Positions 36,747-41,029 of a stretch of 64,000 nt of DNA are shown one piece after another. Position 1 is the stretch's first letter. Each line of letters begins with the position of its first letter. Source of the stretch: Marivirga arenosa. GTDB lineage: Bacteria > Bacteroidota > Bacteroidia > Cytophagales > Cyclobacteriaceae. The stretch covers positions 1,762,001 through 1,826,000 of the forward strand of contig NZ_CP129968.2 in NCBI RefSeq assembly GCF_030503875.2. The letters are read 5' to 3'. The notes below the pieces were generated by a model. The model was not told the DNA's origin. It saw only the letters and a list, made by a program, of their open reading frames with translations, and did not search any database. Made by a program: the position numbers and the translations under genes.

Positions 36747-37085
36747 ATGAAAGAGGATATTACAATTTCAGAAGCTCAAAAAACCGTAGATGAATGGATT
36801 AAAACGGTGGGTGTAAAATATTTCAGCGAGCTCACTAATATGGCCATTCTTACTGAAGAAGTGGGTGAACTAGCCAGAATTATTTCCAGAAAATACGGTG
36901 AGCAATCCTTTAAAGAAAGCGATAAAAAATACGATCTGGGAGATGAAATGGCGGATGTCTTATGGGTATTGATCTGCTTAGCCAATCAAACCGGAGTAGA
37001 CCTGACTGCTGCTTTAAAGAAAAACCTTGAGAAAAAGAATATTCGTGATGCCGATCGTCATAAGAATAATGAGAAGTTGAAGTGA
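36747..37085 (+). CDS. MazG-like nucleotide pyrophosphohydrolase
   Basis: 112 aa all-alpha NTP-PPase. The Mg-binding signature EExxE ... ExxD is complete: E37, E38, E41 (TEEVGEL) and E67, D70 (GDEMADVLW). The protein hydrolyses nucleotides such as dNTPs or damaged NTPs to the monophosphate. It is separated by one base from the amidohydrolase gene and co-transcribed with it; a functional link between the two is not evident. Ends ahead of a hairpin (37128-37163). Confidence 0.88.
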   Translation: MKEDITISEAQKTVDEWIKTVGVKYFSELTNMAILTEEVGELARIISRKYGEQSFKESDKKYDLGDEMADVLWVLICLANQTGVDLTAALKKNLEKKNIRDADRHKNNEKLK

Positions 37086-37423: not shown

Positions 37424-38041
37424 TTGAATAAGACGGTAGCAAATAACTTGAAAAGAAGGGCACAGTTTACTCTGTTCGTTACATCCTATTTACCATTGTT
37501 CGTATTAATAATTTTTAAGCAAGTCTATAATAATTCGGAGTATTTACATTGGGGAGGTTGCGAATTCTCTTCGCTAAATTTATTCATGGAGAAGTTTGGG
37601 TTGTCAATATTGCTTTTAGTTCTTGGTACCTATGGATACCTGGGAGCGATTATAACATTAAGCAATATTCATAAAGCTTCTAAAAATGGTTTTCCGACAA
37701 AGATTTCTAAAATTGAGAATAAGAATAGTGAATCTATTGGATATATAGCTACTTATATTATTCCATTTGCTTTTCAGAGCTTTAATAATTGGCTTGATTT
37801 AGTCTCCATATGTTTTATAATTTTCATAATATATAGAGTTTACATAAACTCATCATTGCTGCTAATAAACCCAGTTTTAAACTTGAGATATTCAATTTTT
37901 GAATTTGAATATATGGAAGGAGAAAAAATCAGAAATGGCATTTTAATTTCAAAAGAAAAGGACTTACAGGAAGATGACTCAATTAAACTCTATTCTATTG
38001 GAAATAAAATGTTCTATTCTATAAAAATAAATGAAAAATGA
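37424..38041 (+). CDS. kwaA: KwaA-like membrane protein of a Kiwa anti-phage system
   Basis: 205 aa with four TM segments (about 14-31, 58-79, 104-118, 125-148) and a soluble C-terminal tail of about 55 residues. The pattern FVTSYLPLFVLIIF at the N-terminus, IGYIATYIIPF in the third helix and LLLINPVLNLRYSIFEFEY after the fourth agrees with KwaA proteins, and the next gene encodes the KwaB family partner, which makes the call strong. The start is a TTG at 37424: the codon directly before it is a stop in frame, and the next ATG would remove the first TM. In known Kiwa, KwaA sits in the inner membrane and works in complex with KwaB during infection. Overlaps kwaB by 4 bp. Confidence 0.75.
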   Translation: MNKTVANNLKRRAQFTLFVTSYLPLFVLIIFKQVYNNSEYLHWGGCEFSSLNLFMEKFGLSILLLVLGTYGYLGAIITLSNIHKASKNGFPTKISKIENKNSESIGYIATYIIPFAFQSFNNWLDLVSICFIIFIIYRVYINSSLLLINPVLNLRYSIFEFEYMEGEKIRNGILISKEKDLQEDDSIKLYSIGNKMFYSIKINEK

Positions 38042-39057
38042 TAGATCAATTTTTAGACAAATTTGAAGATATAAATGATGAAAATCTGCATTTGTATTTT
38101 ATCACTCGTGTGTTAAAGCCAAATCTAAAAAAAAGAGCAAAAGTGCTCGATAAGTATGATTTTGAGATATACCAAGTTGATATTGACAAGGAAATAGCAT
38201 CTCACTTATACGATGTTTCAATAAAACAATTAGAGTATGTAGCTAAAAAGAATTTAGAGATTACAGAATATGAAGCTATTACTGATAGCACTCAGCAAAT
38301 ATTCACATATGATGGTACCAATAAGGCTATGTCATTTCTTGATGTAGTCCAAAATAAACTGAAAAATAAATCGAAAATTGCCAAAATAAAAAACCTTACA
38401 GAAATTGTAAAATCACAGGAATTATGGGCTTACACTGTTGGGTTTTTTGATGATAATCACGATTGGATTTATTCTTTTCGCAAGATATTAAAGGGAAAAG
38501 TAGCCATTGATGAAGAAGCTAACAGTAGCAAAAAATTATTTGGAACATTTAGAACGAAGTTTAATACAGTAAGTAACAAACTTGAAGTACTAAAAGGTGA
38601 AACGATAAATCTAGATGAACGCATTGACTGTATTTATTTTGAAGATATTTTCTATATCTTTCAAAAGACACAGTTCGAACAGATAACAGGTTTAACAGAA
38701 GAATTTAAAGAGCATGCTGAAAAAATAGCAGATGAATTAATTAAAACAGAAATGTTTGATGGATTAGACATTTTAAAAAAGCAAATCAAAGAGACGCCTG
38801 CCATTCATCGAAAGCTGGTTAGACTCAAAAAAATTAACAATTATCAAAACCTAAATGAAAAATCATTAAATAAGATGATAAAGATTGCCAAACGGTATGG
38901 AGGTCAACTTAAGAAGAATAATGGTAAAATTATTATAGAAAATGAAAAAGATGTTGACCTAACGATTAAAGTATTAGTAGATTTTTACAAGACAGGAGAA
39001 TTTTCTGGAAAACCATATGGAACTTTCAGCGGAAAAGAATTAACGACCGAAAAATGA
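38038..39057 (+). CDS. kwaB: KwaB (DUF4868) protein of a Kiwa anti-phage system
   Basis: 339 aa soluble protein with the DUF4868 fold that defines KwaB. The features I recognise are ELWAYTVGFFDDNHDWIYSF near residue 125-145, the RTKFNTVSNKLEVLKGETINL strand region, the CIYFEDIFYIFQKTQFEQI segment near 200-220 and the charged helical C-terminus with MIKIAKRYGGQLKKNNGKI. KwaB is the cytoplasmic effector of Kiwa, reported to act against phage DNA replication or expression together with membrane KwaA. ATGA overlaps at both ends (38038 with kwaA, 39054 with the next gene) show translational coupling of all three genes. Confidence 0.8.
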   Translation: MIDQFLDKFEDINDENLHLYFITRVLKPNLKKRAKVLDKYDFEIYQVDIDKEIASHLYDVSIKQLEYVAKKNLEITEYEAITDSTQQIFTYDGTNKAMSFLDVVQNKLKNKSKIAKIKNLTEIVKSQELWAYTVGFFDDNHDWIYSFRKILKGKVAIDEEANSSKKLFGTFRTKFNTVSNKLEVLKGETINLDERIDCIYFEDIFYIFQKTQFEQITGLTEEFKEHAEKIADELIKTEMFDGLDILKKQIKETPAIHRKLVRLKKINNYQNLNEKSLNKMIKIAKRYGGQLKKNNGKIIIENEKDVDLTIKVLVDFYKTGEFSGKPYGTFSGKELTTEK

Positions 39058-40481
39058 AAGAAAAGCTGACTGATATAGAAATACTCCGGGAAGAGATTGA
39101 ATTATTTACAGTTTACTATTTTGACTCCATTGAGATGTCAGGCTCAGTACAATGTAAGAGCAGAGAAAGCATTAATTATTTAAGAGTTGATCTAACATCA
39201 GAAGAAATAAATTGGGATGACGACTTAGAAAAGCTTCATCAATCTTGCGTAAAACACCTTAAGGAATGGGCGAAAGAGAATGTCTCAAAATTTAGTAATT
39301 ATATTTCGATATCACGTTTAACAGTAGAATACAAACTTCCTAAAGAAGCAGATACAAATCAAAACCGAGTCAGACATGTTAAGCTATTTAATGTCCCTTC
39401 GTATTTTTATCACAACTTCAAAAGAAACAATCACAAAAATAGCTCTAATTTTTCAATGTTTTGGAATAATGTTTTCTTGAGAAATATGGTTCTCTCTGCA
39501 ATCCTTACTTTGGGATTATTAGGAGTCGGGATATACAAAATCCAAACTGATCGAAGCTTCAATGAAAGACTTTTGGAATCATATGATTATATGAATATAG
39601 CAAGCGGGATTATTGCATCTTTTGTGCTTGGTTTTCTAATAACGAAAGTTATAACTATTAGACAAGATAAGTTGAAATACACAGGATCTATCCGCGAACT
39701 TTCTAATAAATTAACTTACTTCAGAAAAATTTGCTTTAGTCTTTCACGGGATCATGTTTTTTGGTCAAAAGAGCAACCTTTCTACGATTCATATCAATAT
39801 GCTATGTCTATAAGAAATGATGTAACATTTAAAGAGTATTTTTATCCGAATTACGATGATGAAATAGAATATGCAAAGGTTAAATCATTTTATAGAGACG
39901 ATATGTCTTATAATGTTGTTTCGTTGATTTTACAACTTCATATGCTGGCTGATGAATCATTTTTGAATTCTGGTTTATTATATACAGAATTTCCACCAGA
40001 CTATATTTATTCTTATGATGAAATGAAGGATTTCATCATATTTACAGATTCAAATCAAATCTGGTACAACTGTTCAGAAATACAGATTTTTCCTGAAACA
40101 TTTTTATCATCCTATGATGTAAAAGAAATTATTAACAATATTAATCGGATTTATCCTGAAAACAATATAGAAAATTTAGCAAGAAATAAGCTTAAAGAAG
40201 TTAGTCTTGATTTTCAGTATCATGTTATACCGAGACTATTTAAATTAACAAGACTTGTAAATTCTAGTTTACCAATGACAATTAAATATTTTATTTCAGC
40301 GGTTATTTTACTACTTTCTTTTGGTCTGATTATTCCGACATTAACCTACGTATTCATCGACCAATCATATGCACTATTAAGCGTTTTTGTTGTTATCGGT
40401 ATTATTGTACATATTTTGCTTACTCTCAAACCAATATTAGAAGCAGAAATTTATTTAGATAGAAAACATGATTACTTATAA
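39054..40481 (+). CDS. Unrecognised four-TM protein, third gene of the Kiwa-like operon
   Basis: 475 aa, no family recognised. Residues 1-140 are soluble and hydrophilic (MKEKLTDIEI, NYLRVDLTSEEINWDDDLEK). A TM pair lies at about 143-161 and 181-203, a large cytosolic domain at about 205-405 (aromatic and acidic, with FWSKEQPFYDSYQYAMSIR and DYIYSYDEMKDFIIF), and a second TM pair at about 410-433 and 438-458. No nuclease, nucleotide-binding or protease motif is visible. Its ATG overlaps the kwaB stop codon (ATGA), so it is translated from the same mRNA in fixed ratio with KwaA/KwaB. Described Kiwa systems have two genes; this could be an added membrane sensor, effector or regulator. Confidence 0.7.
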   Translation: MKEKLTDIEILREEIELFTVYYFDSIEMSGSVQCKSRESINYLRVDLTSEEINWDDDLEKLHQSCVKHLKEWAKENVSKFSNYISISRLTVEYKLPKEADTNQNRVRHVKLFNVPSYFYHNFKRNNHKNSSNFSMFWNNVFLRNMVLSAILTLGLLGVGIYKIQTDRSFNERLLESYDYMNIASGIIASFVLGFLITKVITIRQDKLKYTGSIRELSNKLTYFRKICFSLSRDHVFWSKEQPFYDSYQYAMSIRNDVTFKEYFYPNYDDEIEYAKVKSFYRDDMSYNVVSLILQLHMLADESFLNSGLLYTEFPPDYIYSYDEMKDFIIFTDSNQIWYNCSEIQIFPETFLSSYDVKEIINNINRIYPENNIENLARNKLKEVSLDFQYHVIPRLFKLTRLVNSSLPMTIKYFISAVILLLSFGLIIPTLTYVFIDQSYALLSVFVVIGIIVHILLTLKPILEAEIYLDRKHDYL

Positions 40482-40648
40482 AAAACTTGAGGTTCCCCTC
40501 TACGTTCCCGCCATGCTCTGCGTAATGCTATACCCTTATTCAATATAAACCACATAGAACTTTCATTGGCCATGAAATAACAAGGTATCCAACTGAGAGT
40601 ATTTTTAGTGGTAAAAACTAATACTCAAAGTAGTATTTCAGCAAAAGG

Positions 40649-40819
40649 TGAGAATATGCGCATTGATTTTGCAGCCCGCATATATGCGCACTATGTTTCA
40701 GTCACGCATATATGCGTATCCACTTTGCAACCCGCATATATGCGGACTCTAAAAATTGGATATGCGCGATTGAAATTTTTGACCACGCATAATTATTTCA
40801 TCAAAATAGATATGCGCAT
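40649..40819. repeat. Array of CGCATATATGCG palindromes with 28-bp period
   Basis: The perfect 12-bp palindrome CGCATATATGCG occurs at 40677-40688, 40705-40716 and 40733-40744, exactly 28 bp apart. A half-site ATATGCG at 40654-40660 keeps the same register one period upstream. Degenerate half-sites follow at 40760-40766, 40786-40791 (inverted) and 40810-40816. The intervals are unlike each other, except that TTGCAnCCCGCATATATGCG recurs at a 56-bp double period. About 2.7 helical turns per period. Could be a binding array for a dimeric protein, a REP-like element or a recombination site. Confidence 0.75.
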
Positions 40820-41029
40820 AATTTAAATGTGGCTTAAAACTATTGTTCCCCTACCATTCTGAATGGAGGTAAAAAATGTTCTAATTTTAAAATATTGTAC
40901 TGCCTATAAATAATAAAATTCTCTGCTAAGTAGGCAATGATTATCAGATTAAGCATTGCTCTTCCCAAATTTCATTTTAAATCTAAAAAAATATCTGATC
41001 TCCGATTAATACTTGTATTTTAAGGTGAT

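Follow-up and report, generated by a model that had tools for sequence, protein, structure and literature searches.

A Kiwa operon of Marivirga arenosa with an overlapping third gene that encodes a predicted four-helix membrane protein, likely a local addition to kwaA-kwaB

We analyzed a 64,000-nucleotide stretch of Marivirga arenosa DNA (NZ_CP129968.2, positions 1,762,001 to 1,826,000), called the window here, and all coordinates below are window positions. It holds three consecutive plus-strand open reading frames (ORFs), the first two of which form, by profile, an operon of the antiphage system Kiwa (kwaA and kwaB), while the third, P3, overlaps kwaB and encodes a predicted membrane protein of an unnamed family. 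We see about an even chance that the locus is a standard kwaA-kwaB pair with a captured accessory membrane gene, P3, most likely a separate membrane-acting module. Judged from the loci compared, P3 is likely a locally added accessory and not an overlooked part of Kiwa, because the seven relatives found lie away from Kiwa genes and the 29 other Kiwa loci examined lack it.

The relatives of P3 were found in seven other genomes (loci L020, L021, L052, L053, L060, L099, and L100) as mechanical ORFs of 332 to 379 amino acids (aa). Sampling 196 genomes of the family yielded two of them, 241 of the order another two, 395 of the class two more, and 395 of the phylum one; these counts leave out the window's own genome and dropped rows, and the sets overlap (1,890 genomes in total, repeats counted). 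Neither kwaA nor kwaB was present in the 7.9 to 17 kb around any of the seven relatives. One of them (L052) lies in a defense island, between AbiEi/AbiEii and DarT/DarG with other genes intervening; it belongs to the same four-helix family (tblastn E value to P3 = 2.4e-14) but differs from P3 in being 332 aa long, in lacking its N-terminal extension, and in having no Kiwa genes in the 12 kb examined there. Another adjoins a phage-type integrase gene (L020), one is near an IS91-type transposase (L099, whose contig stops some 190 bases ahead of the P3-like gene and leaves one side unseen), and one adjoins a Bro-N gene (L100). The remaining three (L021, L053, and L060) occupy other chromosomal settings, outside visible defense or mobile genes as judged by eye. 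Searches of viral contigs, plasmids, and phages returned no relatives of P3. Two further candidates were set aside as chance matches, one with a 51-residue match (G158/L004, E value = 4e-4) and one at an E value of 3.1e-4 (G676/L054), neither of them with a profile match.

We also asked how often P3 recurs behind kwaB. Two short patterns taken from a KwaB alignment, run nonexhaustively over 84,980 species genomes, gave 25 loci. In a sample of 395 genomes of the phylum, 8 had a match (the window's own included), and plasmids gave two records. The resulting set of 29 other kwaB loci comprised 24 from the pattern scan, three from the phylum (L013, L017, and the distant L018), and two from plasmids (L101 and L102). 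Locus L051, whose contig ends inside kwaB, was left out; L014, L015, and L016 were removed as duplicates that share their contigs with L034, L050, and L049; and a locus with a weak KwaB match (G556/L019) was rejected since tblastn found neither kwaA nor kwaB there. Within the set, L040 and L044 are near-identical and so are hardly independent, the contig of L029 stops 857 bases past kwaB, and that of L033 begins just before kwaB, so that its kwaA is unseen. No P3 relative was found at any of the 29 loci (27 searched by tblastn and profile, the 2 plasmid loci by profile). This profile, built from the seven relatives without P3, gave no match below an E value of 0.1 in the 27 loci or in the 2 from plasmids; its next best match in the sequences searched, beyond P3 and its own seven members, had an E value of 0.11 (L033, far from kwaB). 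At the nearest locus, from Croceitalea (L027; KwaB 85% and KwaA 75% identical), kwaB is followed by a ParD/ParE pair and not by P3.

These results indicate that P3 is not a general Kiwa subunit, a candidate that failed both linkage tests (0 of 29 kwaB loci and 0 of 7 relatives' loci). An earlier interpretation made from the window alone (the sequence-only reading) had proposed that the third gene encodes a new subunit. It was right that a membrane-protein gene overlaps kwaB, and this gene matches no PADLOC model; as a general claim the new subunit did not hold. Homologues mostly unlinked to kwaA and kwaB were one outcome that it had itself named as contradicting the proposal, and none of the seven found is linked. 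On the sequences at hand, the claim would survive only in a lineage-specific form.

The Kiwa identity of the first two genes is confirmed at the level of profiles. Protein 1 matches the PADLOC KwaA profile (PDLC00212) over nearly its full length (E value = 1.6e-71); it scores 84.3 bits against the NCBIfam KwaA equivalog NF041622, below the model cut-off of 100, and no Pfam family reaches its own cut-off. Protein 2 matches the PADLOC KwaB profile (PDLC00223) over nearly its full length (E value = 6.9e-108) and scores 52.9 bits against Pfam PF16162 KwaB (cut-off, 26.3). The profile check of both genes proposed in the sequence-only reading was thus borne out by both PADLOC models, as was its assignment of the second gene to DUF4868/KwaB. 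Its identification of the first gene as KwaA also stands; the four transmembrane helices that it gave this protein were not reproduced in our hydropathy scan, which showed three clear membrane peaks. The gene order is that of Kiwa, with kwaA immediately 5' of kwaB and an ATGA overlap between them.

In the portions of the literature on which we draw, Kiwa is described as a membrane-associated assembly of a KwaA tetramer and KwaB dimers that protects against phage, in which inner-membrane KwaA senses phage and KwaB binds incoming phage DNA (PMC12904381), and as a two-gene system with no third gene mentioned (PMC12904381, PMC11514479). Among the publications listed, none describes a third Kiwa gene in its title or the opening of its abstract, which is a weak test, and the name KwaC occurs, among the matches listed, in unrelated uses only. 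The window shares with Kiwa the kwaA-kwaB order, the PADLOC matches, and the combination of a membrane and a soluble component; it differs in that a third gene, seen at 0 of the 29 other kwaB loci, overlaps kwaB by 4 bases.

The three ORFs run end to end (Table 1), and the chain of 4-bp ATGA overlaps described in the sequence-only reading is present at both junctions. Translation of P3 is likely coupled to that of KwaB. None of 20,000 base shuffles left the first 140 codons of P3 open, and we therefore take the frame to be very likely coding. Between positions 37000 and 41500, promoter-like sites numbered 28, against a shuffle mean of 27.3, i.e., no excess, and the scan of the same interval found no forward terminator downstream of P3.

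Table 1. Features of the kwaA-kwaB-P3 locus, in window positions
Feature	Position	Strand	Description and basis
kwaA, Kiwa membrane component	37424..38041	+	205 aa, TTG start; PADLOC, NCBIfam, hydropathy
kwaB, DUF4868/KwaB component of Kiwa	38038..39057	+	339 aa; PADLOC, Pfam
P3, third gene, unnamed family	39054..40481	+	475 aa; two membrane-helix pairs flanking a middle domain, predicted cytosolic
ATGA overlap, kwaA stop/kwaB start	38038..38041	+	Sequence
ATGA overlap, kwaB stop/P3 start	39054..39057	+	Sequence; sole such case in 22 kwaB loci, window included
P3 N-terminal extension, about 135 residues	39054..39458	+	Alignment; missing in the 7 relatives found
P3 part common to relatives, residues about 145-465	39486..40448	+	Alignment, profiles
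Strain-variable block with kwaA-kwaB-P3	37083..40711	.	Flank alignment to same-species genome

The hydropathy profile of P3 shows two helix pairs (residues 145-163/182-200 and 417-435/440-458), and searches of Pfam, PADLOC, PHROGs, NCBIfam, and PDB sequences found nothing convincing. Hydropathy and the five libraries thus agree with the earlier description of a 475-aa protein with two transmembrane pairs and no known motif. The 30 residues after helix 2 hold 7 K/R versus 2 D/E, and the corresponding charges before helix 3 are 4 versus 0. With this positive charge next to helices 2 and 3, P3 is predicted to sit in the inner membrane with both termini and the middle domain in the cytosol. A profile built from the seven relatives with P3 left out recovered P3 (E value = 1.2e-29), and the match spanned both helix pairs and the middle domain; at the hydropathy threshold used, both helix pairs appear in six of the seven relatives, and three peaks of the four in L021. 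Three positions of P3 (L291, G424, and P428) do not vary across the eight aligned members (P3 and its seven relatives). By these comparisons, P3 is a member of an unnamed family with two predicted membrane-helix pairs around a middle domain.

Named families offered little for these eight proteins. Their best Pfam match had an E value of 0.0069, and the sole PADLOC match was to PglZ, in one member (E value = 0.047). P3 itself matched no PADLOC-DB 2.0.0 model at E values up to 1 and was therefore not assigned to any defense protein known to PADLOC. Pfam PF07264 (CysZ/EI24) was likewise dropped as the family of P3, which it does not match.

About 135 additional N-terminal residues distinguish P3 from the other seven aligned proteins. 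Searched against 59 genomes, this extension gave matches in 5 besides P3 (E values of 0.018 to 0.091). Three of these loci were inspected and their frames were unrelated in kind; we regard all five matches as chance. There was no match to the extension in viral contigs, and among 46 sequences the best other match had an E value of 0.13.

The family of P3 extends into a much larger branch. A protein database search with one of the relatives returned at least 422 proteins, including the L060 protein (P0001). The 120 of the 422 that were listed are all 328 to 346 aa long, lengths that leave no room for P3's extension. Where an organism was given, the names were mostly Flavobacteriaceae. A profile-profile comparison linked this 337-aa branch to the P3 family with a probability of 99.5% over 303 columns. 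The branch resembles P3 in this link and in the two helix pairs around a middle domain (seen in the L060 protein). It differs in having no extension, in its identity to P3 (18 to 22% for 31 aligned members), and in setting: at the only locus read (L060) the neighbor is a uvrA-like gene (labeled by eye), and neither kwaA nor kwaB occurs there.

Among these 31 of the 120 listed members, EI24/CysZ was the best Pfam match overall, with hits in 17 (best E value = 1e-05), followed by SpoIISA_toxin and Yip1 (0.0018). The two EI24 scores of 26.2 bits (P0052) and 21.9 bits (P0043) fell below the cut-off of 32 and covered the first helix pair only; P0052 nonetheless bears a precomputed PF07264 label in the protein database. 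We read the EI24, SpoIISA_toxin, and Yip1 matches as membrane-helix composition, and a remote link to CysZ may exist. AlphaFold models of P3 (aligned with 31 branch members) and of one branch member (with 30 others) reached mean pLDDT (predicted local distance difference test) values of 58.0 and 59.6, and both are too poor to give a fold. In structure comparisons, TTYH rows led for the P3 model at a Z score that the tool calls common for helical proteins. A bestrophin appeared once among the 50 rows listed (E value = 2.3). We claim neither a TTYH nor a bestrophin fold for P3.

Next, we looked into the genomic setting of the three genes. A second genome of the same species (G191) aligns at 97% up to position 37082 and at 99% from position 40712, and in the slot between (L085) the 3.6 kb that carry kwaA, kwaB, and P3 in the window are replaced by about 2.7 kb with other genes. 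G+C content is 0.285 in kwaA, 0.291 in kwaB, and 0.287 to 0.314 in P3, versus 0.34 to 0.38 in three flanking genes. Given the low G+C content and the replacement in G191, the three genes behave as one strain-variable block, which the sequence comparison suggests was probably acquired. One of the genes in the G191 slot encodes an IS200-like transposase (Y1_Tnp, E value = 1.3e-09), so the place after the mazG-like gene (labeled by eye) looks like an integration spot. Positions 40648 to 40824 hold a dispersed repeat, of which this genome and others of the genus have more copies, and the right border of the block (40712) falls within it.

Other kwaB genes are closely trailed by unrelated genes. 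A 742-aa AAA_13 ATPase (Pfam E value = 5.7e-169) starts three bases past kwaB in L030, and its relatives presumably include anticodon nucleases of the PrrC/RloC kind. In L050, kwaB shares 19 bases with a mechanical ORF of 71 codons. Several kwaB loci lie within restriction-modification genes or next to them: a gene for a type I specificity subunit immediately 5' of kwaA (L013), a DNA methylase gene after kwaB (L031) and a similar-looking one by eye (L028), cytosine-methylase-like and Vsr-like genes before kwaA (L017, by eye), and, on a plasmid of Hymenobacter, a system annotated as type I ahead of kwaB (L102). On a Vibrio europaeus plasmid (L101), the gene of a hypothetical protein precedes kwaB and a neighbor is annotated as anti-phage protein Hhe. 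Viral contigs held no KwaB relative of this kind.

In the account that we favor, a P3 gene from a separate four-helix membrane family would have been captured behind kwaB, and its product would be made together with KwaA and KwaB. P3 would then most likely act at the membrane as a second module, independent of Kiwa; it might, for instance, alter membrane permeability when infection disturbs the membrane, and the Kiwa core would function without it. In favor of this account, besides the kwaB loci that lack P3 and the relatives that lack Kiwa neighbors, are the common low G+C content and strain-variable block of the three genes, the large branch of proteins without the extension, and the unrelated genes that closely follow kwaB elsewhere. 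The step from a membrane protein in a defense block to a membrane effector is one that we infer. Several observations weigh against this account. The label of defense module draws on context, with one of the seven relatives among defense genes, and the poor models supply no fold that supports a channel. The large branch looks chromosomal at the one locus read (L060) and may be housekeeping. The four-base overlap between kwaB and P3 is the tight coupling expected of proteins acting together, and no such ATGA overlap follows kwaB at the 21 other loci inspected. The extension, moreover, occurs only in the Kiwa-linked protein among the eight aligned, and since the protein database was queried with one relative, closer relatives of P3 may lie beside Kiwa genes elsewhere.

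The overlap and the extension, together with the common base composition and the common strain-variable block, favor a lineage-specific third Kiwa component, in which the N-terminal domain would dock on one of the two Kiwa proteins, KwaB or KwaA, while the four-helix part would add a sensor or a membrane effector to the complex; because kwaB recurs without P3 at all 29 other loci, including the one with a KwaB 85% identical, we hold this to be unlikely. A three-component Kiwa in which the extension ties the membrane protein to KwaA-KwaB, and a DNA-binding defense also acts on the membrane, seems to us rather unlikely. Similarly unlikely is that P3 is a passenger, a membrane protein that derives from housekeeping genes or a mobile element, landed behind kwaB, and is expressed alongside the Kiwa genes with no role in defense. 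A passenger would be in keeping with a branch of hundreds of members whose one locus read looks ordinary, with the three of seven relatives outside visible defense or mobile genes, and with the lack of any PADLOC match below an E value of 0.047 in the eight aligned members, but P3 is intact, its frame is far longer than chance, it overlaps kwaB exactly, and one relative (L052) does lie among defense genes. The overlap with kwaB would also suit a regulator or immunity-type membrane partner, not an effector, that would hold KwaAB in check while the cell is uninfected; no such gene is present at the other kwaB loci examined, and we consider this role very improbable.

What the locus means depends on which of these accounts holds. 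If P3 works with KwaAB, a compact two-gene defense would have gained a membrane part by capture, and P3 would offer a handle on the question of how KwaA senses infection. If P3 is a passenger, the locus would caution against taking every overlapping gene for a subunit. If, as in the account that we favor, P3 works alone, an uncharacterized four-helix membrane family would be a source of defense genes.

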